Assembly (NCBI GenBank): GCA_028280485.1
Contig: JANQLS010000135.1
Span: 62,001-126,000, forward strand
DNA length: 64,000 bases
From: Planctomycetota bacterium
GTDB taxonomy: Bacteria > Planctomycetota > UBA8108 > JACQVS01
Direction: 5' to 3'
Shown: positions 8,373 to 25,186 of the stretch, piece after piece
Numbering within the stretch: the stretch's first letter is position 1
How the letters are laid out: each line of letters begins with the position of its first letter
Made by a program: the position numbers and the translations under genes
The notes under the pieces: model-generated
Told to the model about the DNA's origin: nothing
The model's database searches: none
What the model saw: the letters and a program-made list of their open reading frames with translations, nothing else

Positions 8373-10334
8373 ATGTCTAAGATTCGATTTAACTTTCAAA
8401 AGAAGCTACTCATTTTGCTTCTAGCATTTGGCATTTTACCAATCTTTATCATTGGTTCTCTTTCCATTCGAGCCATCCAACAAGTGGAAAAGGAAGTTTG
8501 CTTTCTTTACCAAAATCATGCATTGAATCTCGCTGACAAAATCGATCGCAATTTGTTTGAGCGTTACTTTGATGTTCAGGCTTTCGGGAAAAACCAAGCC
8601 GTTCAAGATATGAGCTCTTGGTATAAGAAATCTGCTCTTGAAAACTCTTTAGTTCACTCCATGAACGAGTATGTAGACCTTTATGACGTCTACTATTTGA
8701 CTATCTTTGTTGACACTGAAGGAAAAGTTGCGGCGGTCAATACAAAAGATTCGGAGGGTGAGGCGATAAACACTCAAGCTGTTTTCGATATGAACTTTTC
8801 AAACTCTGAGTGGTTTAAGGCTTTAAAGAGTGAGAAGTATACCGAGAGCATGCCTTTCTCCGCCCCTGAGAACAAAGCAGCGACAGGAACTTTCATTACC
8901 GACATTCACGTCAATGAATTAGTAAGAAAAGTATACCCTGATGATAGGAGTGGATTATCCATTGGATTTTCTGCGCCCGTAATCAGGAACGGCCTAGTTT
9001 TAGGTTACTGGCACAATATCGCTAAGTTTTCTCTAGTTGAAAGCATTGTCGTCAAGTCTTATGAATCGCTTTCAACTGAGTTCAAAACGACTGAAATCAC
9101 CTTGCTTGATAAAGAGGGAAGGATCATTGTTGATTATGACCCTCATTCCCGAAAGTCTAAGGCCGTCACTTATGATTTTGAAAATGTTCTTCTGAAATTG
9201 AATTTGGCGAACAATGGAGTAGCCGCTGCCCAAGATGCCGTTAATGGAAACACCGGTCACAACATAAGCTTGCACAAGAGAAAACAAGTTGAGCAAATTT
9301 CAGGCTACACTCACCTCCAAGGGGCCTTGGGTTACCCTGGAATGAATTGGTCCGTTCTTTTTCGAGTTAACGTGGATGACGCGAGAGAACAATTTGGGAT
9401 CAATTCAATGGCTAGCCAAATTTACTACACCGGTGGATTAATTAGTTTGATCATCGGTTTATTCGCAGTCATCGGGGGCAAATTCTTCTGTCGACCTCTC
9501 TACCGTCTCTCAGGTGATTTTGAAGCTTCGATCAACTCCATAGTTCAAGAAGTAAAAAAATCTTCCTCACGATTCTGTGAGTTTAGTACTTCTTTAAACC
9601 AAAATGCGGAATTAGCCAGTCAAAGAGCTCAGGAAGTTTCAAGTTCATCCATAGAAGCAAGCGCAAATGTACAATCGGTTGCCGCTTCCGCTGAAGAACT
9701 CTCAAGTAGTATCGGAGAGATTAATAGTCGTCTTAAAGAAGCTGCCAATGTCTCTCAAGAAGCGAATCAAAAAGCCGGCTCCACGGTAAAAATCATGGAT
9801 GGGCTAGCTGCCTCGAGTCAGGAAATTGGGGATGTGATTCAGGTCATCAACTCCATCGCCGAACAAACAAATTTATTAGCCCTCAATGCCACAATCGAAG
9901 CAGCGCGAGCGGGTGAAGCAGGAAAAGGATTCGCTGTCGTTGCCAATGAAGTTAAAGAATTGGCTAATCAGACTGGAAAGGCAACAGATGAAATCGCCAA
10001 TAAAATTCAGGGCGTTCAGAATGGAACAGGCACTGCGGCCGAATCCATTCAAAATGTTTCTAACGTGATTGATCAAATCAACCAGATATCAATCACAGTG
10101 GCGAGTGCAGTTCAAGAGCAAGCAGACGCTGTGAGTGAAATTTCCGCGAATGTCAGACAAGCTTCAAAAGGGACGGACCAAGTGACCGATGCGATTACAC
10201 AAGTTTCAGTTACTTCAAATGAAAACGGAGATATGGCTAAAACTCTCAACGAATCGTCTGACGAGTTAGTCTGCCATGCCGAACTATTGTCTAGCTCAGT
10301 AGCTGGATTCTTAAGCCAACTTAAAAATTTCTAA
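8373..10334 (+). CDS. Methyl-accepting chemotaxis receptor with extracytoplasmic sensor
   Basis: 653 residues. TM1 about 11-33, periplasmic sensor about 40-345 that looks like a double-Cache domain ([18 protein letters not shown], then [10 protein letters not shown]), TM2 about 353-371, and a signalling coiled coil about 400-645. The hairpin tip [19 protein letters not shown] at about 496-515 is the conserved CheA/CheW contact. The stretch after TM2 runs straight into coiled coil and I cannot see a normal HAMP domain. Glu/Gln-rich heptads before and after the tip give possible methylation sites for CheR and CheB encoded downstream. It is the only receptor in the window, so the system may have a dedicated ligand. 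Confidence 0.94.
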
Positions 10335-10409
10335 ACTGACAGAAAGTAACCGAGGAGCACCGATGCACTCAATTTATTCTGAAATACCTCACGCAACTGG
10401 GGGGCAAAA

Positions 10410-10775
10410 ATGAAACGCATTCTCGTAGTCGATGATTCCAAGATGATCAGGAAGGCGATACGTCGCATCCTAGAGTCGATGAACATCGAAGTTACCGAAT
10501 CAGCCAATGGCCAAGAAGCAGTCGATGCTTGTAATGGGGAAGCGCCTTGCGCGGTATTACTCGACATCGATATGCCCGTGATGGACGGCATAACTTGCTT
10601 GAAGAAATTAAGAGAATCGTTCTCTTTTCAGCAACTGCCCATCATCATGTGCACGACACACACATCATTGAACAAGATTCAAGAAGCGTTGGGGTTTGGG
10701 GCAACTGAATACATCATGAAACCGTTTACGGATGACATCATTCAAGAGAAGCTTCAGCAAGTTGGACTCATTTGA
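10410..10775 (+). CDS. CheY-like response regulator
   Basis: 121 residues, single receiver domain: KRILVVDDSKMIRKAIRRIL start, phosphoacceptor Asp in LLDIDMPVMDG (about 54), MCTTHTS with the conserved Thr, and MKPF lysine near the end. A ribosome site GGGG lies at 10399-10402. Its stop codon overlaps the cheB start (TGATG), so the two are translationally coupled. Second CheY of the cluster; it differs from the 3718-4074 copy in the LDIDMP rather than MDWNMP motif, so the two may have different outputs or one may be a sink. Confidence 0.94.
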   Translation: MKRILVVDDSKMIRKAIRRILESMNIEVTESANGQEAVDACNGEAPCAVLLDIDMPVMDGITCLKKLRESFSFQQLPIIMCTTHTSLNKIQEALGFGATEYIMKPFTDDIIQEKLQQVGLI

Positions 10776-11866
10776 TGACCCTAAATTCTCCTGTAAAAGT
10801 TCTTTTAGTCGACGACTCCGCGGTTTGTCGAGGCTTTATTTTGCGCTTATTTGAAAAAGACGCGCAAATTGATGTGCACGCTGTTGCTACTAATGGCAAA
10901 GAAGCCCTCGAAAAAATCAAGAGGCAAGATTTCGATGTCGTTATTTTAGATGTTGAAATGCCAGTGATGAACGGCCTTCAAGCCATTCCTGAAATCCAAA
11001 AAGAAAAGCCTGATCTCCCGATCATCATGGCGAGTGCACTGACCGGGCCTGGTGCCCAGGCGTCATTGGAAGCTCTTGAACTAGGTGCCTCGGATTGTGT
11101 ACTTAAACCAAGCACCACTTCCGTTGTTAAAGATTTTCAATCGATCCAAGGAGAACTCACTCGCAAAGTCCTTCAACTGGGGCAGCGCTACAAAACTGAA
11201 AAGGGAAGAAAAAGCACGACACAAGCTCCACCTCCAAAAGCCCTTCCCAAGGCCTCCCCCAGAGAGAATTCAAAAACTTCAACTCCACACGTCCTTGCAA
11301 TTGGAGCCAGCACCGGTGGGCCAAATGCATTAGTCGAATTTTTTGCATCACTAGGGAAAGATTTTCCATTACCCGTTTTAGTCACTCAACACATGCCGCC
11401 CTTGTTCACTCAGATATTAGCTGAGCGCTTAGAGAAAGCATCTCTGATCCAAGCGGCAGAAGCTGAAGATGGTGAAGTGATCAAACCCGGAAAAATCTAC
11501 GTGGCCCCAGGCGATATCCATATGTTGGTTAAAAAATCTGGCGGCAAAGAAGTTATATCCCTCGAAAAATCACCACCAGAAAACTTTTGCCGACCCGCTG
11601 TCGACCCACTCTTTCGGTCAGTCGGTGACTGCTACAAATCAAACGCCATCGCCTGTGTTTTCACCGGCATGGGAGAAGATGGAAAAAGTGGAGCTGAATA
11701 CTTAAGTAAAAAAGGGGTTCCCATCTACGTTCAAGACAGAGAGTCCAGTGTGATCTGGGGAATGCCTGGGGCAATAGCATCTGCGGGCTTAGCGACAGAG
11801 ATACTTCCACCCATCGAATTAGCCCGTTTAATTCGAAAAATTGTGAAAGGAGGTTCTCAAAAATGA
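10775..11866 (+). CDS. cheB: Chemoreceptor glutamate methylesterase/deamidase CheB
   Basis: 363 residues from ATG 10775, which overlaps the preceding stop. Receiver domain about 7-125 (VLLVDDSAVCRGF, phospho-Asp in VVILDVEMPVMNG), a Lys/Pro/Ser-rich linker about 140-168, and the methylesterase domain with catalytic Ser about 179 (GASTGGPNAL), His in VTQHMPP and Asp in FTGMGEDG. It removes methyl groups from the receptor after phosphorylation by CheA. The gene ends with an ATGA overlap into cheR, the classic coupling of the two adaptation enzymes. Confidence 0.96.
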   Translation: MTLNSPVKVLLVDDSAVCRGFILRLFEKDAQIDVHAVATNGKEALEKIKRQDFDVVILDVEMPVMNGLQAIPEIQKEKPDLPIIMASALTGPGAQASLEALELGASDCVLKPSTTSVVKDFQSIQGELTRKVLQLGQRYKTEKGRKSTTQAPPPKALPKASPRENSKTSTPHVLAIGASTGGPNALVEFFASLGKDFPLPVLVTQHMPPLFTQILAERLEKASLIQAAEAEDGEVIKPGKIYVAPGDIHMLVKKSGGKEVISLEKSPPENFCRPAVDPLFRSVGDCYKSNAIACVFTGMGEDGKSGAEYLSKKGVPIYVQDRESSVIWGMPGAIASAGLATEILPPIELARLIRKIVKGGSQK

Positions 11867-12687
11867 GTACTACCTCCACTCAAGCATGTTACAGCTACCT
11901 TCAAACATTCCTGAAACAAGAGATGGGATACGATCTCGGAGCAGGAAAAGAATATTTAGCAGAAACCAGGTTAAATCCCGTAGCTGCTGCCTTCGAACTC
12001 AGCACTTGGGAGCAATTGGTCGAAGAGCTTAAAAAAACAAGCAAGCCCGCCATCAAAGAAGCTATCTGCGATGCGATGACGACGAACGAAACCAGTTTCT
12101 TCCGTGATAAGAAACCTTTCGATCAACTGATCGCTCGTTGCATTCCCGATGTGATGGAAAAAAACAAGATGACCAAGCAACTAAAAATTTGGTGTGCTGC
12201 TTGTTCTTCAGGGCAGGAACCTTATACCTTAGCGGTGATCTTGAAAGATCACTTTCCTGAACTCAATAACTGGAATGTGAATATTCTGGCAACCGATATT
12301 TCAAGTTCGATCCTGAATAAAGCGAACTCCGGCGCTTACACTCAATTTGAAGTGCAACGGGGAATGCCCATTCAAATGTTAGTGAAGTACTTCCACCAGA
12401 AAGCGGACCATTGGGAGATCAATAAAGATCTCAAGGATCTGATCACCTTTAAGAAGTTCAATCTGATGGATTCATTCGCAGGGATCGGTGGCCCCTTCGA
12501 CATTATTTTTATCAGGAATGTCCTCATCTATTTCGACGGGGGAACAAAAGCTCAAATCTTCCAGAAGCTTTCCCAGGTCATAGATCCTTCCGGGTATATG
12601 TTCTTGGGAGGCACAGAAACCACCTTGGGCTTCTGTGACAAGTTCAAGCGCTGCCAAGAAGGGAATCATTTCTTCACTCTGAAATAG
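11863..12687 (+). CDS. cheR: Chemotaxis protein methyltransferase CheR
   Basis: 274 residues. Standard two-part CheR: N-terminal helical domain with TTNETSFFRDKKPFD, then the SAM-binding domain with WCAACSSGQEPYTLA, LATDISSSILNKA and IFIRNVLIYFD. It methylates receptor glutamates. The start overlaps the cheB stop by four bases and follows a full AAAGGAGG ribosome site (11846-11853). No C-terminal VPWFEW-binding or TPR extension is present. Last gene of the operon; a strong terminator follows. Confidence 0.96.
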   Translation: MSTTSTQACYSYLQTFLKQEMGYDLGAGKEYLAETRLNPVAAAFELSTWEQLVEELKKTSKPAIKEAICDAMTTNETSFFRDKKPFDQLIARCIPDVMEKNKMTKQLKIWCAACSSGQEPYTLAVILKDHFPELNNWNVNILATDISSSILNKANSGAYTQFEVQRGMPIQMLVKYFHQKADHWEINKDLKDLITFKKFNLMDSFAGIGGPFDIIFIRNVLIYFDGGTKAQIFQKLSQVIDPSGYMFLGGTETTLGFCDKFKRCQEGNHFFTLK

Positions 12688-13002
12688 GGCTTCTTGCCCC
12701 ATTTCATGATTTGTGCGAATCCACGACAGTAGAAAGAGTTCCAATTTATCCAACTGGAACTCATCAAAAACGGGCCCCAAACGGGGCCCGTTTTTGTTAC
12801 AAAGACAAGTCTCACAGGGGCTTACAGATAGTTTTTCCCAGTTCTCTCTCAAAGAAGTATAATGCACGGCTTGGCCACGGAGGCCGATGCTTTTACAGCA
12901 CCCTCCCAGCCTTATGGCTCACTTATGAATCACTGTCGATGATCAACGGAGAATCGTTGATTCACCGATAATTTCACCAACCTTTAAATAAGAGATAGAA
13001 CC
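12688..13002. other. Intergenic region cheR-fba
   Basis: 315 bases with the operon terminator, then a small hairpin (ATCAACG at 12942-12948 with CGTTGAT at 12955-12961) about 40 bases before the aldolase start, which could be an operator or leader element. No gene. Confidence 0.6.
12766..12795. terminator. Rho-independent terminator of the che operon
   Basis: AAAAACGGGCCCC at 12766-12778, four-base loop, GGGGCCCGTTTTT at 12783-12795. Very GC-rich stem with flanking A and T tracts. A weaker hairpin (AGTTCCA/TGGAACT) lies just before it. Confidence 0.92.
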
Positions 13003-14037
13003 ATGCCACTGGTACCGATGCGCATCCTCTTGGATCACGCCGCCGAAAACGCTTATGGTTTGGCCGCCTTCAATGTCAACAACATGGAGCAGATCCAAGC
13101 TATTATGGAAGCGGCGGAGGAGACCAACTCACCCGTAATCATTCAAGCTTCACGTGGAGCTCGTTCTTATTCACAAGACAACTATCTTCGTCACCTCATG
13201 TTAGCGGCTGCCGAGTTGCATCCCAATATCCCTGTCGCTATGCACCAAGATCACGGAAACAGCCCCGAGACTTGCCAAAGTGCAATCGATAATGGTTTCA
13301 CCTCCGTCATGATGGATGGATCCCTCGAAGCCGACGGAAAAACTCCCGCTGACTTTGCTTACAATGTCAACGTCACTCGAACGGTCGTTGAAAGCGCTCA
13401 CAAACAAGGAGTTTCAGTCGAAGGTGAATTGGGTTGTCTCGGTTCGTTAGAAACTGGAATGGGCGATAAAGAAGACGGTCATGGTGCTGAAGGAGTCCTC
13501 ACCCATGATCAACTCCTTACCGACCCCGAAGAAGCTGAACAGTTTGTCTCTGAAACTGGTGTTGATGCATTAGCAGTCGCCATCGGAACCAGTCACGGTG
13601 CTTATAAGTTTACCAAAGAGCCTACGGGTGAAGTTCTCGCTATGGATCGAATCGAAGAGATCCATAAAAGACTTCCCAACTGTCACTTGGTGATGCACGG
13701 AAGCTCTTCAGTTCCTAAAGAACTTCAAGATATCATCAATGCTTACGGCGGCTCATTGAACCCCACTTGGGGAGTGCCCGTTGAAGAAATTCAAAAAGGT
13801 ATCAAGTCTGGCGTCCGTAAGATCAATGTAGATACCGACAACCGTTTGGCGATGACCGGAGCTATCCGAAAAGTATTAGCCGAAAGCCCTGAGAAATTTG
13901 ATCCTCGTGATTACCTCAAGCCCGCTCGCGCTGCGATGGCTGAAGTTTGTAAAGCACGAATGATTTCATTTGGTCAAGCAGGTCACGCTGACAAGATCAA
14001 GATCGTGACTTTAGATGAAATGGCAAGTCGTTATTAA
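13003..14037 (+). CDS. fba: Class II fructose-1,6-bisphosphate aldolase
   Basis: 344 residues, cytoplasmic, zinc-dependent. It interconverts fructose-1,6-bisphosphate with glyceraldehyde-3-phosphate and dihydroxyacetone phosphate. Seen: [10 protein letters not shown] near the start, catalytic and zinc region MHQDHGNS with Asp83 and His84, DGSLEADG, the [12 protein letters not shown] loop, [13 protein letters not shown] with a zinc His, LVMHGSSSV with another, and phosphate-binding [12 protein letters not shown]. The overall pattern, including the [17 protein letters not shown] insertion, fits the Calvin-cycle-subtype (longer) class II aldolases, which also serve glycolysis in heterotrophs. 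It is monocistronic. Confidence 0.95.
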
Positions 14038-14081
14038 GGTCCTTAGATAATGACATGCTTATAACTGCTTAGGTCACTTTG

Positions 14082-14125
14082 CAAATGCCCGTAACCTTCC
14101 TTACATCGGAGGTTACGGGCATTTG
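14082..14125 (+). terminator. Long-stem hairpin after fba
   Basis: Arms 14082-14097 (CAAATGCCCGTAACCT) and 14110-14125 pair perfectly over 16 bp and can extend by two more after a one-base bulge; the loop is short. There is no U-tract, so it is an unusual terminator or an RNA-stabilising element. It ends 48 bases before the next gene. Confidence 0.6.
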
Positions 14126-14173
14126 TCATCCAGTTTCAGTTGAATTTAGATCGAACACTCAACGAGCAACCCG

Positions 14174-15241
14174 ATGTCCACCACTACTGAAGACTATCAA
14201 CTGGCTACCGCACTCAAGATTTTTGATCGTGGAGATCCTCAAGAAGCCGTCAAAATCTTGAAGAAGGTGCCCCTAGAACCTGACACTTGCGGTCAAATCT
14301 TCACGACTTTATCTAGAGCTTATTCGGAATTGGGAAAGTTTGATCAAGCTATAGAAACAGCACAAAAACTTGAGGGACTCCCCTACGGCAAAGATCCCGC
14401 AAGGATCATTCAAGCTGAAATTCTCGTTGCGAATCACCGAGAAAAGGATGCTTTAGAAGTCTTAAATTCCGTCAGCCCTCAAAATGTCATCGCCAATGCC
14501 TTAAAAGGGATCCTCCCTCACGTCATCGGTGGAGAAGATAAAGTCCATTTCCCCATATCGAGTTCAAGCCTCTGGTTTCAATCCGTTCTTTCAGTTTTGT
14601 TTATCTATACGGAGCGAGCCTTAGAAGCCCAAGAAGGAAACATCGAAGCCCTGAGAACGAGAAGCCATTTACTTCTTCCTGACCTTCGAGCGGAGTCCTT
14701 TAGAAATCCCAATCCTGGGCCCATCAAACGAGCCTTCGAAAAGCTGAAGTCAAAATCGGCACAACAGCGAAACGCACGCTTGAGAACAGTCGTTCAATTC
14801 TTCTTTGATGAAGATTTAGAGGGAGCCCAGAAAGAACTTCAAAAGTGGATTCGTACGGAGCCTGATTTCTTTAGAAAGGAAGGCTACGATCCTCGGCCTG
14901 AATTTTTAGGCGGAGTTCTTCTAACACTGGGAAAACACGCTGAATATTTAAAATGGATTAAAAAGGCCGACCCCTTAACGGGAAAAGATTACCAAAACTT
15001 AACAAGCTTGAAAGCTTTCTCGCTGCTGGCAACGGGAAAATTCAAAGAGGCCCAAAGAACCTTAGTTGTCTCGGACGCGGTAGAATCAGCTCACCTTCAT
15101 GCGCAAATAGAACTCGCTCAAGGCCATCGTGAGCGAGCCTTAGCATGGTTTCGACGCGCTTTTAATTTCGATGACATCGCTCATGTCGATCTAGCCTTAG
15201 CTGAGCTCAAATATTTGGGTTGGACCTTGAGTGAAAACTAA
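14174..15241 (+). CDS. TPR-like helical repeat protein, function unknown
   Basis: 355 residues, no signal peptide or membrane segment, so probably cytoplasmic. Helical repeat pairs are seen at about 5-85 (LSRAYSELGKFDQAIETAQKL is a TPR-type helix-turn-helix) and again near 300-345 (HAQIELAQGHRERALAWFRRAF). The middle is also helical but does not fit the TPR consensus closely. Its stop is one base before the ATG of the pseudouridine synthase gene, so the two are probably translated together. I cannot name a function; TPR domains usually mediate protein contacts. Confidence 0.75.
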   Translation: MSTTTEDYQLATALKIFDRGDPQEAVKILKKVPLEPDTCGQIFTTLSRAYSELGKFDQAIETAQKLEGLPYGKDPARIIQAEILVANHREKDALEVLNSVSPQNVIANALKGILPHVIGGEDKVHFPISSSSLWFQSVLSVLFIYTERALEAQEGNIEALRTRSHLLLPDLRAESFRNPNPGPIKRAFEKLKSKSAQQRNARLRTVVQFFFDEDLEGAQKELQKWIRTEPDFFRKEGYDPRPEFLGGVLLTLGKHAEYLKWIKKADPLTGKDYQNLTSLKAFSLLATGKFKEAQRTLVVSDAVESAHLHAQIELAQGHRERALAWFRRAFNFDDIAHVDLALAELKYLGWTLSEN

Positions 15242-15242
15242 C

Positions 15243-16046
15243 ATGCCTCAACCATCCGAAGGCGAACGATTGACAGAGTACGAAAAATTAGAAGCTGCTG
15301 TAGAAGGATTCGATCCAAAACGAATTCTCTTTCAGGGAAGTGGCTTACTCATCATCGACAAGCCAGAAAACCTACCTGTTCACAAAGGAACTTCTCATCC
15401 TTACGGTTTAGCAGAACTATTGACCCATTGGGCCAGTGTTTTCCCCAACGTCATCGATATCAAGCCCGGCAAATCGATTCATCCACTGCATCGTCTCGAC
15501 CGCGAAGCCTCGGGCGTGCTTCTGTTCGGACTCAATTCATCGATACGAAAATCTGTTCAAACAGCTTTTAAACAAAGGCGAGTCCAAAAACGTTACCTCA
15601 CTTTTGTCGGCGGCCCCGTTGATTCTGAAGGGGCCATCGAGGGTAAAGTTAGAAGTAAATTAAGAGGAACATATCGTCGCATGCCGGCGAGCTTAAGTTA
15701 TAAAAAAGTGTTTGCCGATGAACGCATGAGTTTAATTGAAGTCTATCCTAACGAAGGATACACCCACCAAATTAGAAGTCTTTTAGCCAGCTGGGGAAGG
15801 CCGATCGTGGGTGATTTAAGATACGGAAAACCCGTTCCTTCAAAAAAGTTCTTAAAAAAATTCAACCTAGCTTGCTTGCCGCTTCATGCCTATCAATTGT
15901 GCTTGCCGAAGGACATTCTAGGTGCAATAGAATCCTTCGAAGCGCCGTTACCTTCACCTTTTTTAAAGATCATTCAACAAAAAGACTGGGACCTCGATCA
16001 AATCATCACAAAACTAGAGGAGAATTTCGATCTCGGCCTCAAATAA
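15243..16046 (+). CDS. RluA-family pseudouridine synthase
   Basis: 267 residues from ATG 15243; a GTG at 15231 inside the previous gene is an alternative. The family isomerises specific uridines in rRNA or tRNA. The catalytic Asp lies in LHRLDREASGVLLFG, preceded by LLIIDKPENLPVHKG and followed by KRYLTFVGG, EVYPNEGYTHQIR and GRPIVGDLRYG, all in the expected order. There is no S4 RNA-binding domain, as in RluA and TruC-like members. Which uridine is modified cannot be told. Confidence 0.93.
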   Translation: MPQPSEGERLTEYEKLEAAVEGFDPKRILFQGSGLLIIDKPENLPVHKGTSHPYGLAELLTHWASVFPNVIDIKPGKSIHPLHRLDREASGVLLFGLNSSIRKSVQTAFKQRRVQKRYLTFVGGPVDSEGAIEGKVRSKLRGTYRRMPASLSYKKVFADERMSLIEVYPNEGYTHQIRSLLASWGRPIVGDLRYGKPVPSKKFLKKFNLACLPLHAYQLCLPKDILGAIESFEAPLPSPFLKIIQQKDWDLDQIITKLEENFDLGLK

Positions 16047-16575
16047 AGTTTTTTTACCGATATTCAACTTTTTCGCATAATATAGAAGTACAAGTCATCG
16101 AACTATAACATCCGAATTAAAACCAAATTAATCGGACTTAATAGTTCATTTCATTTTTGAGTTGGATGCTTTTGGATTGCTTATGGAGGCAATTAAAACA
16201 TTCCACTCAAACATCTATGTCGAAAGGTAACGGTGCATCTTCAAAACGCTTCGGCGAAAATTGAGGCTAAACCTAGCTCCATTTGAGCGCTAAGATTTTT
16301 AGCTTTGGAATAGATAAAAATCTTTTCAGTTAAGTCCTGCTTTTTAATGAATGAATCAACGCCAACGAAAATAAATCGAGAACCATCTGAAATAATTCAA
16401 ATCCATTTTGAATTATTAAACACACAAACTTCTTAGTACGAACTCCAGTTGTCGTTCATTCTAAAAAAGCTTTATTAGGCGTCGCAAAAGAGAGAGTGCG
16501 ATCATCTAAGAACTGAAAAAAGTAAGAGCCTTTCTTAAGGATCTTCACCTTAGGCTTCTTACAAAACCAGCGCAC
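16047..16575. other. AT-rich intergenic region
   Basis: About 530 bases without a credible gene, followed by the structured leader of the phosphofructokinase-like gene. An antisense open frame overlapping this region lacks any family resemblance. No riboswitch recognised. Confidence 0.5.
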
Positions 16576-16634
16576 CGTCCTTTCGTTCACTCCAAGGTCG
16601 TTTGGAGATTGAACTCCTACGACCAGAAAGGACG
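16576..16634 (+). promoter_or_regulatory. 5-prime leader hairpin masking the ribosome binding site
   Basis: CGTCCTTTC (16576-16584) pairs perfectly with GAAAGGACG (16626-16634), which contains the Shine-Dalgarno AAAGGA of the gene starting at 16642. Inside, GGTCGT (16596-16601) pairs with ACGACC (16619-16624) and GGAG with CTCC (16604-16607/16614-16617). The fold would hide the ribosome site, so translation is probably controlled by unfolding. Confidence 0.6.
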
Positions 16635-16641
16635 AGCGACC

Positions 16642-17901
16642 ATGCGCTGCTTGATCGTCACTTTGGGCGGAGACGCCCCCGGGATCAACTCTACCGTCCG
16701 TGCTGCCACCAGAATTGCAATCCGAAGAAACATGGAAGTCTTTGGAGCAAAACAAGGCTGGGTGGGGCTTCTCAATGATCAATTTTGGAAACTCAAAGAA
16801 TCCGATGTGGGATCGATCATCAATAAAGGGGGATCGATCTTGGGTTCAACCGATGTCAAGATCCCAGAACAAGACGACAAAGCGCACGCCAAAATCGCTG
16901 AGTCATTGAAAAAATTTGACTTAGTCATCGCTACAGGTGGTTTAGGAAGCTTCACCGTTCTCAATCGGGTGTACGACAAATCTCGGATGAACACGACGAC
17001 CACCATGTTCGTACCCGCCTCAGTCGAGGGCGAATTTCTTAATCCTGACCATGGCAGTATGAGCGATCATGACCCCATTCACGCCGAATCTATCGGCGCT
17101 GATACCGCAGGGAATCGCGCCATAACGGCCATCGATAACCTGAGAGACCAAGCCTTCCACAGCCGAACTGTTTTTATCGTTGAATGTGTTGGAACTAAAA
17201 GTAACTTCCAACCTTTGCAAATCGGCACTTCCTGTGGAGCTCAACGTATCTATCTCCCCATTCACCCTCGCCTGTCTGAAGAAGACAAGGAAGAGATTCA
17301 AGAACTCTACGGTACCGCGTTCGATCCTAATTATGTCGATATCAATGAAATGGTTCATTGGATTGAAGACACGTTTGAAAAGAGTAAACGAAAATATCTT
17401 CTGGTGATTTTGCCCAGCGGTGTTCCCATGATGAGTATTCGTCAGCAACATGGAGATACCGATGAAACGGCATACGAAAAAATGATCACGACTACGAAGC
17501 CTCTAGAACTGACAGTTCTACGAGTAGCTGAAGCCTTAGATATTCACTTCACCGGAAGAGCCAACCCGATTCAAGTGAGACACGTCCTTTTAGATGACCT
17601 TCAACGTGGAGGCGCCCCGAGCATTAAAGATCGGATGCTCGGAACAGTTTACGGTGAAGCTGCAGTCGAAGAGTATTTCTCTGTTCTCAACAACCCTGGT
17701 TTTGATACCGACCATCGAGGGAATTTAAATTTACTCGCCATCGATGGAGTGGGACAGATGAGTTGGAATTGCTTCCCCAGAGAAAAAGTGGGCCATCTTT
17801 TCAAAGGAAAATATGCAAGAAGTGGTGGTTTGAAACCTCTACCTTACTTCAGGCAAGCGCGTGGGTTGGTTTCGGGGTATCGACCGTTTGCGACGCTTTA
17901 A
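16642..17901 (+). CDS. Phosphofructokinase-family protein with altered active-site motifs
   Basis: 419 residues from ATG 16642 (AAAGGA site upstream). The PFK fold is clear: LGGDAPGINSTVRAAT, GGSILGSTD, ATGGLGSF, LQRGGAPSIKDRMLG. Yet key positions differ from 6-phosphofructokinase. In the GGDGS motif the Mg-ATP Asp is Leu101; TIDND reads SVEGE, so the catalytic base Asp is Glu129 and the next Asp is Glu131; the MGR motif reads VGT; and the His of the GH-QRGG sugar-phosphate motif is Asp. The Arg of QRGG remains. Either it has different donor or substrate use, or it has lost activity and acts as a binding or regulatory protein. The protein is about 100 residues longer than bacterial PfkA. Monocistronic. 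Confidence 0.8.
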   Translation: MRCLIVTLGGDAPGINSTVRAATRIAIRRNMEVFGAKQGWVGLLNDQFWKLKESDVGSIINKGGSILGSTDVKIPEQDDKAHAKIAESLKKFDLVIATGGLGSFTVLNRVYDKSRMNTTTTMFVPASVEGEFLNPDHGSMSDHDPIHAESIGADTAGNRAITAIDNLRDQAFHSRTVFIVECVGTKSNFQPLQIGTSCGAQRIYLPIHPRLSEEDKEEIQELYGTAFDPNYVDINEMVHWIEDTFEKSKRKYLLVILPSGVPMMSIRQQHGDTDETAYEKMITTTKPLELTVLRVAEALDIHFTGRANPIQVRHVLLDDLQRGGAPSIKDRMLGTVYGEAAVEEYFSVLNNPGFDTDHRGNLNLLAIDGVGQMSWNCFPREKVGHLFKGKYARSGGLKPLPYFRQARGLVSGYRPFATL

Positions 17902-17924
17902 TGAATTTAAATTAATTGGATAAA

Positions 17925-18162
17925 CCCCTCGCTAGCGCTTCGGGCTAGTTAATGAGTTGGCATGCTGTCACGATTAACTAGCCCGAAGTTTTTACTGTAG
18001 GGGCGTCCCCTTGTGGGCGCCCGTTTCCCTGAACGAAATCACAAACTTTCAAAATCAAAAGACGCTTCAAGGAATTGGGCAGGGGCAAGCCCTGCCCCTA
18101 CAAGCGAACTGGTTTTAAGAATTCTGAGGGTCAATTAACTATCCCGAAGCGCTAGCGACGGG
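17925..18162. repeat. Composite palindromic repeat block A
   Basis: 28-base terminal inverted repeats (17925-17952, with core CGCTAGCGCTTCGGGCTAG, and 18135-18162; two mismatches). Inside are a 15-bp stem-loop (17938-17952 with 17974-17988) and a unit bounded by GTAGGGGC (17997-18004) and GCCCCTAC (18094-18101), carrying the short palindromes GGGCGCCC and GGGCAAGCCC. Same family as the blocks near 24.6, 34.3 and 52.6 kb. It fills the convergent gap between two genes. Confidence 0.9.
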
Positions 18163-18177
18163 AATTCTTATTTGAAC

Positions 18178-19638
18178 CTAAACAATATCCCTTCCATGCC
18201 GAACCACCTCATCGGCGAGCAACTTCAAATCTGCCCGTCGTGTTCGATGATTCGTTAAGGCCAACCGAATAACAAAGCTTCCATGGAGCACAGTACTCGA
18301 TGGCACAGCTAAGCCTGACTCGTGTAAGCGATGGAGGATCTCTAAATTAATTTCATTCAGACGCTCTTGATCGAGACCTCCCGGATTAAATCGTAAACAA
18401 ATCACATTGAGGACCACCTCAGAGAGAAGCTCGAGCTGAGGATCTTCTTCGACAACACTTTTTAAATACTCGGCGTGAGCTATGTTTTGTTCGATTTGTT
18501 CTTTGAGTCGATCGACTCCTTGAGAGACCCAAGACAACCACACCTTTAAGGCCTTAAAGTTACGAGTAAGTTCAATTCCCAATGGAGCAAATGGTAATCC
18601 GGATTTTAAACATCCCCGATCGACCTTAGGAATGTAACTTCCTTCGATAGAAAAAGGCCGACGATGGGCTAAGGGATCTCGGACCAAGACGCACGCGACT
18701 TCAAAGGGCAAGTAACCCCATTTGTGGAGATCAAATCCCAAGGAATCCGCCCGTTCGATTCCGTTAACGAGATGCTTTCTTGAATCGCTGAGTCGCGCCC
18801 AAGCTCCGTAAGCCCCATCGATATGAAACCAAAGATCTTCACTCTGACAAACGTCGGCGAGAGCATCAAAATCATCGATGGATCCTGTGTTCACCGTACC
18901 GGCAGTTCCGATGACACAGAATGGCTTCAGACCCTGATGACGATCTTCCTGGATGGTTTTTTTAAGCTGGGAGACTTGAATCCGAAAATCGGAATCTACA
19001 GGGATGGGCCGAAAGGCCGAACTCCCTAGCCCTAATAAATTAGCAGCTTTTTGCGCCCAGCCATGAGTTTCACTCGATCCGTAAAAGACTAATCGAGGAG
19101 CCTTCGAATGCTGTAAGCCTTCGTTCCATACATCAAAACCCGCGCGATCATCTCTCGCCGCGGCTAAGCCCACGAAATTTGCCATCGTCCCCCCGCTCAC
19201 TAAAACACCTGAGCTTTCACTCGGAAAGCCCATCACCTGCTTCAACCAATCGACAACCTGAAGCTCAACGTAAGTCGAAGCTTGCTCAAATCCGGCACAG
19301 TGAGGATTCATCGCTGATGCGAACATCTCGGCCATCGAAGCTAAGGGAGTTCCCGTACCTTGAACCCAACCGTAAAAACGGGGATGCCGATTCCCGTTGG
19401 TATAGGGAAAGATGTTTTCTTTAAAGAGTTGGTAGGCTTCTTCATCTCCCAGACCGGCCATTGGAAGCTCGCGTTGAATTTCTTTTCTGGCTGAAGATGG
19501 AACTTCTTGCCAAGCCGGTTCGTCTCTTACCCCCTTCACTTGATCGAGCATGTCGTCGACCATTCGATGAGCCAACGAGCGGAACTCATCCCAGTTTTTG
19601 GGGTCGAGGGATTTATCCTTGGGGTCTTCTTCACTCAT
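18178..19638 (-). CDS. PLP-dependent group II amino acid decarboxylase family protein
   Basis: 486 residues, cytoplasmic. Belongs to the aromatic-L-amino-acid/glutamate decarboxylase family: HPRFYGWVQGTGTP, the SGGTMANFVGLAAARD phosphate-binding segment, FHIDGAYGAWA with the pyridine-binding Asp, and DLHKWGYLPFE with the Schiff-base Lys about 306. The substrate may be an aromatic amino acid, but related enzymes act on other amino acids or catalyse aldehyde formation, so this stays open. It is preceded on the same strand by the M48 peptidase gene; a perfect hairpin repeat separates them. Confidence 0.88.
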   Translation of the reverse strand: MSEEDPKDKSLDPKNWDEFRSLAHRMVDDMLDQVKGVRDEPAWQEVPSSARKEIQRELPMAGLGDEEAYQLFKENIFPYTNGNRHPRFYGWVQGTGTPLASMAEMFASAMNPHCAGFEQASTYVELQVVDWLKQVMGFPSESSGVLVSGGTMANFVGLAAARDDRAGFDVWNEGLQHSKAPRLVFYGSSETHGWAQKAANLLGLGSSAFRPIPVDSDFRIQVSQLKKTIQEDRHQGLKPFCVIGTAGTVNTGSIDDFDALADVCQSEDLWFHIDGAYGAWARLSDSRKHLVNGIERADSLGFDLHKWGYLPFEVACVLVRDPLAHRRPFSIEGSYIPKVDRGCLKSGLPFAPLGIELTRNFKALKVWLSWVSQGVDRLKEQIEQNIAHAEYLKSVVEEDPQLELLSEVVLNVICLRFNPGGLDQERLNEINLEILHRLHESGLAVPSSTVLHGSFVIRLALTNHRTRRADLKLLADEVVRHGRDIV

Positions 19639-19669
19639 TAATAGTTAATGTTTTTAGTAACAACAATCG

Positions 19670-19752
19670 CCCCTCCAAGCCCGAAGCTTTAGCGAGGGAT
19701 CAGGTTAAATATCGAGTCCCTATCCCTCGCTAAAGCTTCGGGCTTGGAGGGG
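19670..19752. repeat. Perfect 31-bp inverted repeat (family E)
   Basis: Arms 19670-19700 and 19722-19752 are exact inverted copies (core AAGCCCGAAGCTTTAGCGAG) around a 21-base loop. One further arm lies at 28995-29024, ten bases beyond the dehydrogenase stop. It resembles family A in layout, with CTTTAG in place of CGCTAG. Confidence 0.93.
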
Positions 19753-19785
19753 TTAAAATTGAATAACCAAAATTTCGAAATACTA

Positions 19786-20631
19786 CTAAGGCGTAATCGG
19801 CTTGTAATATTTCTGAGCTTCGGGAATGTACTTTCTTAAGTCGGCCAATCGTTTTCCATGAGAGGGATGCGTTGATAAAAAGTCAGCAATTGAACTTCCT
19901 CTTTTATCTGCTCCCGTGGCTTCACCCATTCTTTGCCAAAACTCGATCGATTTTTCAGGGTTGTAACCGGCCTTAGCCATAAAGATCAAACCCACTCGAT
20001 CTGATTCTGTTTCCATATCTCGACTAAAAGGTTTGATGGCGAATACATCGGCTCCCACTGCGAAAGCTTGTAAGATAAGATTTTTATCTTCAGGATCCTC
20101 ATTTTGAAGAGCGATTAACAAACCAGAAGCAATGATATTCATTCCGAGTTCTTGGGTGAGTCGTTCAGCTCCATGTCGTTGAATCACATGAGCAATCTCA
20201 TGCCCCATCACTGTTGCCAACAAGGCATCATCCCCTTCAGTTAATCTGAGAAGGCCCGTATAAACGGCAATCTTTCCTCCAGGCAGAGCCCAGGCATTGA
20301 CGACATTGTCATCTTCGATGACTTTGAATTCCCAGGGCAAATCAGATCGACCACTCGCTTCGGCTAAGCGATGACCGATGCGCTCCACGCGTCGGTTATA
20401 AGTAGTGTTTCCCGATATATTTGAAGCGGAGAGCGCTTGCTTGTAAGCCTCGGTTCCTAAATCTATCTCATGTTGAACCGTGATCGTTGGACTGATGAGT
20501 TGCTTGCGACCCGTATAAGGCGCCGTCACGCAGCCGACGAATACTGCGAGGAAGGTAAAGAGCACAATCGCACGAATTCCACGAAATGAAAAAAGAGAAC
20601 GCGGGCTTCTTTTCTTTAATGTTACCGACAT
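19786..20631 (-). CDS. M48-family zinc metallopeptidase, probable lipoprotein
   Basis: 281 residues. N-terminal basic segment and hydrophobic IVLFTFLAVFVGC, with Cys about 34 as a possible lipidation site (the residue at -3 is Phe, not ideal). The catalytic HEIAHVIQRH (HExxH) is followed by the third zinc ligand Glu in ETESDRVGL and FLSTHPSHGKRLADL at the end. Such M48C-type proteins (relatives of LoiP/YcaL/BepA) act in the periplasm on misfolded outer-membrane proteins. The divergent neighbour is a triplet of HtrA-like genes, which suggests a shared envelope quality-control role. No TPR tail as in BepA. Confidence 0.9.
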   Translation of the reverse strand: MSVTLKKRSPRSLFSFRGIRAIVLFTFLAVFVGCVTAPYTGRKQLISPTITVQHEIDLGTEAYKQALSASNISGNTTYNRRVERIGHRLAEASGRSDLPWEFKVIEDDNVVNAWALPGGKIAVYTGLLRLTEGDDALLATVMGHEIAHVIQRHGAERLTQELGMNIIASGLLIALQNEDPEDKNLILQAFAVGADVFAIKPFSRDMETESDRVGLIFMAKAGYNPEKSIEFWQRMGEATGADKRGSSIADFLSTHPSHGKRLADLRKYIPEAQKYYKPITP

Positions 20632-20959
20632 CGTATCTACTGACCTGACCTTAATAGAACTTCATTGAGTCTTACAGCTAAATGACTTACGACAACAACA
20701 CGGAGTTGTTTCCACAATTAGATTGCACTTCCCCACACAGGAAGATCCCTTAGATTCTCAAGAAACTAACTCATCTTGAAGAGATTGAGAACCGATAACT
20801 TGAAATGGGGTTCAAGGTTTTAACGTCTGTGTTATTACGAGCATTCGTAGTAGACCGACCCAATCTTTGGGAACTACAATCCTAAAAAGTTCGTTTTCAT
20901 GACGTAAGAAGTTATGACGTCACTGGATGCAATATTTATGAAGGGTTAGAATAGAGTTT
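20632..20959. other. Divergent region M48 / HtrA-like triplet
   Basis: 328 bases with no gene. A directly repeated heptamer ATGACGT (20899-20905 and 20914-20920, spacing 15) lies about 40-60 bases before the first protease-like start; the second copy is part of a TGACGTCA palindrome. Possible operator or alternative sigma-factor site. Confidence 0.45.
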
Positions 20960-22072
20960 ATGAAAAATTATGACACCCCCACCCACCCTTCGTGTTTCTC
21001 TTTTAATCGTCCTCCCAATTTAACTCAATACGGCTTCTGGACTTCCCTCTGGGTCCTGATCATCAGTTTTCAGTTTTTGCCGACAGACCTTCTCTCCCTC
21101 GAGATGGTGACCGCCAAGCGCGTTGAAAACAATGTTGCCCGTCTCTATAACCAAACCGCCTCTGCGGTTGTGGGAATTGAGAGCAAGGTCAAAGAGAACA
21201 TGTTCCTCGGAACTGGAGTCATCATCGATCCTAAAGGATTGGTGCTCACTTCGGTCACCGTTGTCCCCGATAAAGCCAGAGACATTCGAATTTATTTAAA
21301 AGGCGGAAAACGCGTCGCCGCCGAAATTGTGAAGGTGGTTACCGAAAAAGAGTTTTCCCTCGTTCGAATTAAAACAAAGGGAGACTATCCATTCCTCAGG
21401 CTGGGAGACAGCGACACTGTCAAACTCGGCCAACCGAGCATCACTTTAGGCAATGCGTTTATGAGTATCGTTCGCGATGATCACGTCTGTATCAATTCAG
21501 GCATCATCAGCGGAATATACAAGCTCAACAGTGGGCGTTCCGAATCGAAATACACCGGCAAAGTGATCGAGACGACGACCTTAGTCAACGACTATATGGA
21601 CGGGAGTCCTCTCATCGATAAAAACGGTCGCATCATCGGCATGCTCAGCCTGAACTACTCTACTCGACGCTGGCTGGGAACAGCCGTACCCATCAATATC
21701 TTGAAGCCTCTATTCGGAAAGTATCGCCCTTGGCATTCTGACCGTATTCATAAAACTGCGGTTTATCTTGGGCTTGACCTAACTGAAAAAGGCGATGTGC
21801 TCGACCAAAAAAGCCAATTGATCATCGATGGAATCTCTGCTGGTTCACCGGCTTCGAGAGCGGGTATCGCTTTAGGGTCTAGAATCGTCAAGGTCGCTGG
21901 TAAAGTTATCCACTCGATCGCAGACTACAAAAAAGCCCTCAAAGAAGCTCCTTCTGGGAAAAAAATCGTGATCGAGGCCTACCCTTTAGAAAAAAGCTCG
22001 AGTTCAACCCAAGAGATTAAAATGCCTGAAGAACCCAGGGTTTTTACGCTTCAACCTTGGCTTTCATTTTAA
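20960..22072 (+). CDS. HtrA-like pseudoprotease (trypsin fold plus PDZ), all triad residues replaced
   Basis: 370 residues. A hydrophobic segment at about 25-42 gives a signal anchor. The S1C fold is recognisable (GTGVIIDPKGLVLTS, LGDSDTVKLGQPSITLGN, then a PDZ domain about 265-355 with SPASRAGIALGSRI). The three catalytic positions are all changed: His is Thr100 in LTSVTVV, Asp is Glu131 in EFSLVRI, and Ser is Asp214 where GNSGGP reads YMDGSP. It should be proteolytically dead. It may bind unfolded proteins or regulate the active paralogue two genes downstream. AAGGG precedes the ATG. Confidence 0.85.
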   Translation: MKNYDTPTHPSCFSFNRPPNLTQYGFWTSLWVLIISFQFLPTDLLSLEMVTAKRVENNVARLYNQTASAVVGIESKVKENMFLGTGVIIDPKGLVLTSVTVVPDKARDIRIYLKGGKRVAAEIVKVVTEKEFSLVRIKTKGDYPFLRLGDSDTVKLGQPSITLGNAFMSIVRDDHVCINSGIISGIYKLNSGRSESKYTGKVIETTTLVNDYMDGSPLIDKNGRIIGMLSLNYSTRRWLGTAVPINILKPLFGKYRPWHSDRIHKTAVYLGLDLTEKGDVLDQKSQLIIDGISAGSPASRAGIALGSRIVKVAGKVIHSIADYKKALKEAPSGKKIVIEAYPLEKSSSSTQEIKMPEEPRVFTLQPWLSF

Positions 22073-22121
22073 TCCACTTTTCTATTCTGTACTGAACTTC
22101 ACCAATCAAATAAACAAGAAC

Positions 22122-23231
22122 ATGTCCCAAGTGAAGAACCTACTCATTTTGGCCTGTGTGACCTTCAGTGTTTCCGTTGGGCAAACGGTTGCCAATGAAA
22201 CTTTGGAAAAAGCTCCGAAGAAGCAACAAGAGGTTAAGCTCGCTAAAAAACTCACGCAAAATATCTTCGATCTCGTTCAAACGGTTTCTGATCGAATCGT
22301 TTCCATCGAAGTCGACCGAGAACCTGAACAGGGCCGCCGAAGAAACCGTAGACCCATTCGAGGACTCAGCCCCGGAGATCAAGAAGGCCTCCAAGACTAT
22401 TACAGACGACCTAAAGGCGCTGTCACGGGTCTTCTGCTAGATCACAAGGGTCATATCCTCACTTCGGACTACAACGTCTTAGGTACTATCAAAAAGATCA
22501 AAGTGACTTTAAGTAATGGTGAATCTTATGAAGCCAAAGTTCATGCGAATTCACCGGCCGACGACATCGCTCTTTTGAAAACAAAAAAGACGATCGACAA
22601 AAAACTTAAGCTCAGCCCTATCAAGTGGGGAAATCCTAAAGTCTTTCGATCCGGCTTGTTCACATTGGCGATTGGAAGCTCGCCCGAACCCGGTCAAGCA
22701 ACGGCCACCGTGGGTATCGTGAGCGCTCCCAAACGAAATGCCGGCCGAGCATTTCAAACTGACGCTGCGATGAATTATGGCAACGTGGGAGGCCCCTTGA
22801 TCGACTTGCAAGGCAATATCGTCGGGCTCTCTGCTTTCGTAGGTCACACCTATCCGCATTGGGGATTTAATTCAGGAATCGGATTCGGTGTTCGAGCGGA
22901 TCTGATTCAAAAGATTCTTCCTGAACTCAAAAAAGGAAAAAGCTTCCAAGGGATCGAACGCCCGCTCCTGGGAGTCGCAGCGGAAAACCGCCACCGTGGT
23001 CCGGGGGCAAAAATCAATTTAGTTTCTCCCGGAAGTGGAGCTGACAAAGCCGGAATGAAACCTCAAGACACGATCTTGATCTTCAACGGAGCCGAAGTCA
23101 TCGACTTCCCTCACCTTCGCCATTTGATCTTCAAGCTCAAGCCTGGAGCCAAAGTCAAATTAAAGGTCAAACGAGAAGACAAAGAATTAGATCTCGAAGT
23201 CACCCTTGGCAAATTTGATCCAAGAGTTTAA
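22122..23231 (+). CDS. HtrA-like pseudoprotease with signal peptide and PDZ
   Basis: 369 residues. Cleavable-looking signal peptide (LLILACVTFSVSVGQTVAN). Trypsin-like core with GAVTGLLLDHKGHILTSDY, ADDIALLK and GNVGGPLIDLQGNIVGL, then a PDZ domain about 280-365 (LVSPGSGADKAGMKPQD). Of the triad only Asp148 remains: the His position is Tyr117 and the Ser position is Val222. A basic Arg-rich loop (GRRRNRRPIRG) precedes the core. Same-strand genes on both sides are paralogues; the three starts lie within 20-50 bases of the previous stop, so they form one operon. Confidence 0.87.
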   Translation: MSQVKNLLILACVTFSVSVGQTVANETLEKAPKKQQEVKLAKKLTQNIFDLVQTVSDRIVSIEVDREPEQGRRRNRRPIRGLSPGDQEGLQDYYRRPKGAVTGLLLDHKGHILTSDYNVLGTIKKIKVTLSNGESYEAKVHANSPADDIALLKTKKTIDKKLKLSPIKWGNPKVFRSGLFTLAIGSSPEPGQATATVGIVSAPKRNAGRAFQTDAAMNYGNVGGPLIDLQGNIVGLSAFVGHTYPHWGFNSGIGFGVRADLIQKILPELKKGKSFQGIERPLLGVAAENRHRGPGAKINLVSPGSGADKAGMKPQDTILIFNGAEVIDFPHLRHLIFKLKPGAKVKLKVKREDKELDLEVTLGKFDPRV

Positions 23232-23250
23232 ACCCACTGGAGACCCTGTA

Positions 23251-24534
23251 GTGCTACGCCAATTAACTCCATCCGTACTCCTGATCCCCTTGGTCATCGC
23301 TTGGGTGCTGAATTTCTCAGCTTTGAGCCTCCAGGCTCAAACCACTCAAATCGATGAACTCAATGAGCTTCAGAAACGAATCACAAATACGATCGACAAA
23401 TGTTTGCCCGGGGTTTTATTCATCGATCGAGGATCCGGATTTTGTATTTCAAAAGATGGTTTTGTTCTGACGAACGACCACGTGATGGGATCCAATAAAG
23501 AAATCGATGTTCGTTTTGCTTTAACGGGGAAGAAGTTTCGTGCCAAGTTACTCGGTAAATATCCTGAAGGAGATTTAGCTCTTCTAAAAATTGAGAAGAA
23601 AGGTTCTTACCCTTTTATTAAGCTGGGTGACTCCGACAAACTGAAACCCGGTCAGTCGACTTTAGCTCTTGGGAATCCTTTTCTCCTCGGTGACGAAAAC
23701 GAGTTTTTCCGAGGTATTCCCGCTGATTTCCATCCTTCTGTCAGCTACGGGGTCGTCAGTGCAGTATTTAGAAACACTCCCCCGCGCTACCCCGATGCCA
23801 TCATGGTCGATACGGCCGTCAATCCCGGTAACTCGGGAGGACCTTTGGTGACATTGGATGGTGTCGTTGTCGGTATCAACGGAAAGATTGAAACTCGTTT
23901 CGGTCTAAGCCTGAATTCAGGAGCTGGGTACGCTGTCCCCTCATCTAAAATCATGCGCTTCCTTGAACCCCTCAAGAAAGCTAAGGGCAGAGCTGTTTCT
24001 TCCGGTCAAATGAAAGGTTTAACCGTTGAAGAGCGTATATCAGGAGGAAAGCCCGGTCTTCCTATCAAATATGTCAGCCCCGGGAGCCCCGCTTACGATG
24101 CTGGTTTTCGTGGCGGTGATCGAATCTTAGCGATCGACTCGTATTTGATCCGTACCCAAAGTCACTACGATGGATTTTTAAAGTCCTACCCAGCGGGAAG
24201 TAAAATCAAATTCAAAGTTCTTCGAAAAAGCGGAGAACAAACCATCGAAGCCACGCTTTCACAAAAATCGAATAAGCGCCCCGTTAAACTCGGTATCAAG
24301 CTAGGAACGGATGATAATCCACTTCAAGTTACTCGAGTCTACGAAAACTCTTCAGCTGACTTAGGTGGAGTCAAAGTCGACGACATTCTCTTGGAATTCG
24401 ACAAAGTAAAGATCGAAGGCGTGATCGACTTGATCAAGATCGTCAAAGAGAAAAAGCATGGCGATAAAGTTAAGGTCAAAATCAAAAGGAAAGATAAGAC
24501 CTTGGAGCTGGACGTGGAGATGCTGAGTCCATAG
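23251..24534 (+). CDS. HtrA/Deg-family serine protease with two PDZ domains, triad intact
   Basis: 427 residues from GTG 23251, chosen because TGGAGA lies just upstream and a signal peptide follows at once (SVLLIPLVIAWVLNFSALSLQAQ); a longer frame from TTG 23206 would overlap the previous gene. Catalytic residues are all present: His77 in LTNDHVMG, Asp108 in GDLALLKIE and Ser195 in NPGNSGGP. Two PDZ domains follow at about 250-335 and 340-425. This is the working protease of the triplet, expected in the periplasm or cell envelope as a DegP/DegQ-like quality-control enzyme. Confidence 0.93.
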   Translation: MLRQLTPSVLLIPLVIAWVLNFSALSLQAQTTQIDELNELQKRITNTIDKCLPGVLFIDRGSGFCISKDGFVLTNDHVMGSNKEIDVRFALTGKKFRAKLLGKYPEGDLALLKIEKKGSYPFIKLGDSDKLKPGQSTLALGNPFLLGDENEFFRGIPADFHPSVSYGVVSAVFRNTPPRYPDAIMVDTAVNPGNSGGPLVTLDGVVVGINGKIETRFGLSLNSGAGYAVPSSKIMRFLEPLKKAKGRAVSSGQMKGLTVEERISGGKPGLPIKYVSPGSPAYDAGFRGGDRILAIDSYLIRTQSHYDGFLKSYPAGSKIKFKVLRKSGEQTIEATLSQKSNKRPVKLGIKLGTDDNPLQVTRVYENSSADLGGVKVDDILLEFDKVKIEGVIDLIKIVKEKKHGDKVKVKIKRKDKTLELDVEMLSP

Positions 24535-24570
24535 GAGCCTTTTCGAATTTGCAAATGACTAAAAAGCCAT

Positions 24571-24963
24571 TTAACTAGCCGGAAGTTTTAACTGTAGGGG
24601 CGTCCCTTGTGGGCGCCCTTTTCATTGAACGACATAATAGACATCAAAAATCAAATGGCGCTTTAAGGAATTGGGCAGGCCCTATTTTGGCGCTAGCCAT
24701 TGATAGGCCCTGCCCCTACAAACGAACTGGTTTAAAAAGTTTTGGGAATCAATTAACTAGCCCGAAGCGCTAGCAAGGGGTCAAGGTCTTCGTTCCTGCC
24801 CCTCGCTAGCGCTTCGGGCTAGTTAAGGGTTAGTTTTCTAGTCCCAAATTAAATAATTTTGTAGGGGCGTCCCTTGTGGGCGCCCTCTCTTTTTAGACGC
24901 AATAAAACATTCGAAATTGAATATCACTTTATGGAATTGGGCAGGGGCAAGCCCTGCCCCTAC
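24571..24963. repeat. Composite repeat block B with two GTAGGGGC units
   Basis: Two units bounded by GTAGGGGC and GCCCCTAC (24594-24719, 126 bases with an internal extra segment, and 24861-24963, 103 bases) flank a 28-bp hairpin with one mismatch (24753-24780 with 24799-24826; core CGCTAGCGCTTCGGGCTAG). Single arm TTAACTAGCC at 24571. Same family as block A. It fills most of the 650-base gap before the GlmS-like gene; the remaining stretch 24964-25186 shows nothing else. Confidence 0.9.
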
Positions 24964-25186
24964 ACGTGTTGGTTAATGGGCTTCCCCACTGGGCAGGATC
25001 TCGACATTAACAGAACTCGCTCAGCCCCTCTCCCAAACGCTTCCCAAACTCAAACCAAAGACTCACTTAAAGCATTCAAGTTTCACGCTTGAGCTTTCAG
25101 TGATCTTCTCGACGAGCCGATTAATAAATCATCAGAGTCTATATCTCATCAGTATTAATATCGGCCCTTCGACTTGAGGATCGCTC

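Follow-up and report, generated by a model that had tools for sequence, protein, structure and literature searches.

A planctomycete clade of phosphofructokinase-fold proteins with a rewritten active site that probably no longer act as 6-phosphofructokinases

What does a protein do that is built like a phosphofructokinase (PFK) and has had the catalytic motifs of that enzyme rewritten? The question is raised by a gene in a 64,000-nucleotide stretch of DNA from a Planctomycetota bacterium, called the window here. A sequence-only reading had described the gene as an intact PFK paralogue of 419 residues; on re-reading the frame, its coordinates, ATG and length all proved correct. The gene and its flanks comprise:

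16627..16632, + strand: AAAGGA, a Shine-Dalgarno-like element 9 nt before the ATG of the PFK-like gene, as read from the sequence
16642..17901, + strand: 419 codons and a stop, encoding the divergent PFK-fold protein
17689..17898, + strand: C-terminal extension, residues 350-419, kept in the clade described below (GGL.P.P...RQ..G..SGY), without a Pfam match and of low model confidence

By profile, the protein is a member of the PFK superfamily (PF00365 / IPR035966). PFK is its sole Pfam match (E=2.5e-46, residues 2-343), with a PF00365 score of 158.7 bits against a curated cut-off of 30.9; the NCBIfam PFK models score far under their cut-offs (best 145 bits vs 253). The AlphaFold2 model (pLDDT 73.8, pTM 0.75) has a PFK fold, and Foldseek and VIA-align match it to ordinary PFKs, with E. 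coli 1pfk at Z 31.1 (rmsd 3.0 over 301 aligned residues) and the halves of human PFK at Z of about 31. The predicted structure is that of a two-Rossmann PFK. Its parts under pLDDT 50 are an insertion listed below, part of residues 266-287, and the C-terminal tail from residue 367, which the model does not resolve.

Upstream of the gene lies an aldolase gene:

13003..14037, + strand: gene for a class II fructose-bisphosphate aldolase, on the same strand as the PFK-like gene and 2.6 kb ahead of it

Between the two lie unrelated genes for a TPR protein and a pseudouridine synthase, followed by a 600-bp intergenic gap. The aldolase arrangement is not repeated in G314 or G298, the two other genomes with an orthologue, and its proximity is therefore no evidence of an operon; no neighbourhood is common to the three genomes. 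The gap holds a perfect 6-bp hairpin (CTCCAA-GGTCGT-TTGGAG, window 16590-16607) 34 nt before the start codon, and an Rfam scan of window 10000-25000 returned no riboswitch or other RNA upstream of the gene. Further along the window (20960-24534, + strand) are three consecutive tandem trypsin/PDZ (HtrA-like) genes, judged by eye from their translations.

Substitutions are numbered here as in E. coli PfkA unless residue numbers of the window protein are stated. Mapped onto E. coli PfkA, the window protein carries R72D, D103L, T125S, D127E, D129E, R162T, M169V, R171T, E222S and H249D. The elements concerned, with residue numbers of the window protein for the segments, are:

16936..16950, + strand: GGLGS replacing GGDGS at residues 99-103; D103 is L in 3/3 orthologues
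17020..17034, + strand: SVEGE replacing TIDND at residues 127-131; D127 and D129 are both E in 3/3, the others reading SVENE and SIENE
17035..17082, + strand: clade-specific insertion, residues 132-147, variable and mostly of low confidence in the model, holding a chance MSDHD
17167..17169, + strand: T176 at the R162 position, T in 3/3 orthologues
17188..17205, + strand: VGTKSN replacing MGRxxG at residues 183-188; K186 and N188 do not vary within the clade
17416..17418, + strand: S259 at the E222 position, S/N/S across the clade
17578..17613, + strand: R313 (equivalent to R243, kept), then LDDLQRGG; H249 is D (D319) in 3/3, and R252 reads R/H/R

Every substitution named in the sequence-only reading (GGLGS with L101, SVEGE with E129 and E131, VGT, and Asp before QRGG) is thus present, as is the QRGG arginine said to be retained (residue 322). 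The list was incomplete: R72D, R162T, M169V and E222S are further changes in the window protein, and G11K/R and R252H occur in the orthologues.

These changes bear on both substrates. Among the fructose-6-phosphate (F6P) ligands, which are R162 (the 6-phosphate ligand contributed by the neighbouring subunit), R243, M169, R171, E222 (a sugar ligand), H249 and R252, the clade keeps R243 throughout and R252 in two of the three members; the R171 position is T or L, and the E222 position S or N. ATP-, ADP- and PPi-PFKs are all said to conserve this site (PMC11609450). The donor motifs are described as GGDGSxxG for ATP, GGDGSxxI for ADP and GG(D/E)D(S/T) for PPi (PMC11609450), and the clade, reading GGLGSxxV/I, has none of them; two orthologues have K or R in place of G11, and R72 is D or V. 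The PFK general base, D127, takes the F6P proton (PMC12203962), and both it and D129 are Glu in all three orthologues. Donor and sugar sites are thus both mostly lost in the clade. Because the catalytic base (PMC12203962) and the F6P site common to the PFK types (PMC11609450) are both altered, a working 6-PFK is unlikely, and the clade protein most likely no longer converts F6P to fructose-1,6-bisphosphate (FBP), a loss of function that the sequence supports well.

We considered whether MSDHD (residues 141-145 of the window protein), which would restore a D-x-D, could be the true equivalent of TIDND, and rejected it: the orthologues read PASVENE and PASIENE at the TIDND position, and MSDHD lies in the variable, low-confidence insertion. 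All three clade members have R21, R25, R154 and R243. In allosteric bacterial PFK, the effector-site phosphate ligands are R21, R25, R154 and K213; the first three are thus kept and K213 reads K/R/K, but R54 is replaced by E and E187 by Q or H.

How distinctive these substitutions are was judged from 119 surveyed rows, almost all of them PFKs from this phylum; two wrong-frame picks (L096, L117) were disregarded, leaving about 117. Only the clade has D103L and R162T, and D129E is found in the clade and one other row (L136). D127E recurs in a separate lineage, the Planctomycetota T(V/I)END PFKs (L033, L143, L147, and L094 with SIEND), which unlike the clade keep D129, R162 and mostly R171. As L143 and L147 of this lineage otherwise look functional, a D-to-E change by itself need not be inactivating; what is distinctive is the loss of R162, and that of D127 along with D129. 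The earlier statement that the Mg-ATP Asp of GGDGS is essential in all known PFKs goes too far, since this position is often N, E or G in functional-looking PFKs (D in 70, N in 18, E in 17 and G in 5 of the 119 rows, the two wrong-frame picks included). Within the survey, L033, L094, L143, L144 and L147 (genomes G018, G164, G178, G118 and G149, mostly of family f23) have Glu (TVEND, SIEND) or Ala (AVAND) as the TIDND base and keep D129 and R162; they may include natural D127E enzymes. A further stand-alone PFK, L029 (G302), has GGGGT, TINND (D127N) and QRGA and is possibly inactive too.

Orthologues were detected in 3 of 392 Planctomycetota genomes. Those beyond the window genome (G000) are in G314 (53% identity, another family of the same order) and G298 (47%, the same family), both of other genera. 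All three frames are intact at 417-419 aa, with pairwise identities of 44-53%. The trio is monophyletic (support 100/100); its stem is very long, at 3.5-3.8 changes per column, against 0.3-0.7 for the end branches. The sequence-only reading had left open whether the substitutions mark a clade or a lone decayed gene; they define a clade spanning three genera, and the two orthologues contradict the second possibility. In a tree made without the longest-branched rows, the clade falls within the short ATP-type PfkA group (100/100). A sister relationship with the order's ordinary PfkA (L038, L012) is compatible with the tree test (p-AU 0.43), being neither rejected nor shown. Within the order, clade and ordinary short PfkA are distributed in a complementary way, in small numbers and with several genomes incomplete: the clade genomes G000, G298 and G314 have no ordinary short PfkA, five genomes (one genus, family f2) have PfkA and no clade member, and both are absent from G117 and G306.

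Profile searching added no members, either from 29 genomes of the class or from a phylum sample largely the same as the one above, and viral contigs yielded no relatives. A single degenerate-pattern scan, built from one sequence, of genome contigs beyond the phylum returned only an ordinary Chloroflexota PFK, and a plasmid search gave distant PFKs only, none with at least 60% identity, the five listed being annotated as ordinary PFKs. Members outside this one planctomycete order may exist.

With short ATP-dependent PfkA (PF00365) the clade proteins share the fold, the loops GGDAPG and GG.GS, R21, R25, R154, R243 and QRGG; the window protein differs in lacking R72, D103, D127, D129, R162, M169, R171, E222 and H249 and in having the insertion at residues 132-147 and a 70-aa C-terminal extension. 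The regulatory C-half of eukaryotic PFK-1 has likewise lost the donor site and catalytic Asp and looks similar (PAS/T-V.., GADTA). However, that half retains its sugar-phosphate site, used for fructose-2,6-bisphosphate (PMC12203962), and its equivalents of R162 and H249 are present in alignments, whereas the clade has T and D in 3/3; it is also fused behind a catalytic half, whereas the clade proteins are stand-alone frames of 417-419 aa. A first tree did join the clade weakly (89/60) to L034_C, the C-half of a planctomycete tandem PFK. We rejected origin as a detached eukaryote-type C-half because the tree program warned that long branches met there, because the clade falls inside the PfkA group once L034_C is removed, and because the sugar site kept by eukaryotic C-halves is absent from the clade.

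The tandem gene itself (L034:310-2535, + strand, G223:C396) is a eukaryote-type PFK-1 in a genome bin of the same phylum, where bin contamination is possible. Its N-half is intact (GGDGS, SIDND, MGRH, QRGG) and its C-half degenerate (GGGEG, SIAND, MGG, QQGG); it exceeds the TIGR02478 cut-off (909.8 vs 708.4 bits), and its best match is a mammalian PFK. A second tandem PFK was not found in 17 genomes of its order.

The sequence-only reading had asked whether the genome holds another PFK. Two are present, both with TIDND and MGR: a PPi-PFK of the PRK14072 type (C26; 457 bits against an NCBIfam cut-off of 273), which belongs to the same superfamily but has TIDND, MGR and GGND, and a 469-aa type (C166). 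G298 likewise has two other PFKs, and in G314, which is 80% complete, none was detected. The 469-aa type occurs in 18 genomes of another family, all without a clade member.

Is the clade protein under constraint? At 20 positions that we selected as donor or sugar contacts of the E. coli PfkA structure, clade members match E. coli PfkA at 30-35%; the values are 65% and 80% for the genome's other PFKs and 85% for the order's ordinary PfkA. Clade pairs agree with each other at 60-75% of these positions, against a mean of 84% (lowest 65%) for ordinary PFK pairs of similar overall identity, which implies that constraint on the old active site is relaxed. Nor are the contact positions significantly more conserved than the rest (11/20 invariant vs 7.5 expected, p=0.08). 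However, D103L, D127E, D129E, R162T and H249D are the identical replacement in three proteins only 44-53% identical, which is beyond chance. Fixed in the clade (residue numbers of the window protein) are S127, E129, E131, T176, D319 and R313 at contact positions and K186, N188 and D318 nearby. The protein as a whole is under constraint. The loss of many catalytic residues could be read as a decaying gene or an annotation artefact, which we regard as very improbable: the three frames are intact in separate genera, 155 of 413 alignment columns are invariant in the trio, and the genes are far apart in base composition, with third-codon-position GC of 0.47, 0.95 and 0.85.

The reading we prefer, at about even chances, is a PFK-derived, non-catalytic regulator that binds a phosphorylated metabolite (a pseudo-PFK). 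It would descend from a short ATP-type PfkA in which a burst of change rewrote the metal site, the site for the phosphate donor and the greater part of the F6P site, selection then maintaining the resulting protein. The two-Rossmann scaffold would have been retained, and a phosphorylated metabolite may be bound without catalysis, in a regulatory role; the arginines left in the effector site (R21, R25, R154), the remodelled pocket or both would probably bind it. A sensor of sugar phosphates had been suggested from the sequence, and a metabolite sensor is still a candidate. The case for sensing sugar phosphates with the old active site is weaker, as most of the residues that bind them (R162, E222, M169, R171 and H249) are gone, and the putative ligand more likely binds at the effector site.

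The invariant pocket residues S127, E129, E131, T176, K186, N188, D318 and D319, known from three members, could equally form a new catalytic site. A pocket rebuilt for another substrate or reaction, as another kinase or a non-kinase, is the main rival to the pseudo-PFK, though on balance unlikely; a kinase of new specificity was among the suggestions of the sequence-only reading and is still a candidate. In such an enzyme, E129 or E131 would act as acid/base, with K186 binding phosphate. The uniformity of these eight residues at 44-53% identity speaks for such an enzyme, as do the conserved R313 and the C-terminal extension, likewise conserved, which might close over the site. Against it, the donor-site residues G11 and R72 differ within the trio itself and Leu replaces the metal ligand D103, which leaves no ATP or PPi site recognisable, and the contact positions lack the significant excess of conservation that was sought above. 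The narrower proposal that the E129/E131/K186/D318-D319 constellation carries out another reaction instead of the former kinase chemistry, in one planctomycete order only, is doubtful. Could the protein instead be a still working, unusual PFK, with a donor that is neither ATP nor PPi? Both Asp-to-Glu changes are the most conservative possible and stay acidic, R243 is kept (R252 in 2/3), and the clade genomes lack the ordinary short PfkA found in other members of the order, as if it had been replaced; we nevertheless hold this improbable, as R162T, R171T/L, E222S/N, H249D and D103L come together, and all PFK types conserve the sugar site (PMC11609450). The partnership with a normal PFK that had also been proposed would make the protein a regulatory subunit in a hetero-oligomer within the same cell. 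The alpha subunit of plant PPi-PFK is such a regulatory partner. Inactive paralogues that activate an active partner are known (PMC5201418), and G000 and G298 each have two other PFKs. Yet these paralogues belong to distant subfamilies, the 469-aa type is also found in the 18 genomes without a clade member, and G314 has no other PFK detected; the proposal thus finds little support and has a slim chance.

A literature search on inactive bacterial PFK paralogues returned nothing. PFK is a textbook glycolytic enzyme whose sugar site and catalytic Asp are described as general to the family (PMC12203962, PMC11609450), and a maintained, stand-alone bacterial clade without both would represent either a pseudo-PFK in bacteria or a PFK fold with a new activity. 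It carries a warning, in that Pfam alone would label such genes 6-phosphofructokinase. The clade offers a natural setting for testing how metabolic enzymes become sensors or acquire a different chemistry.
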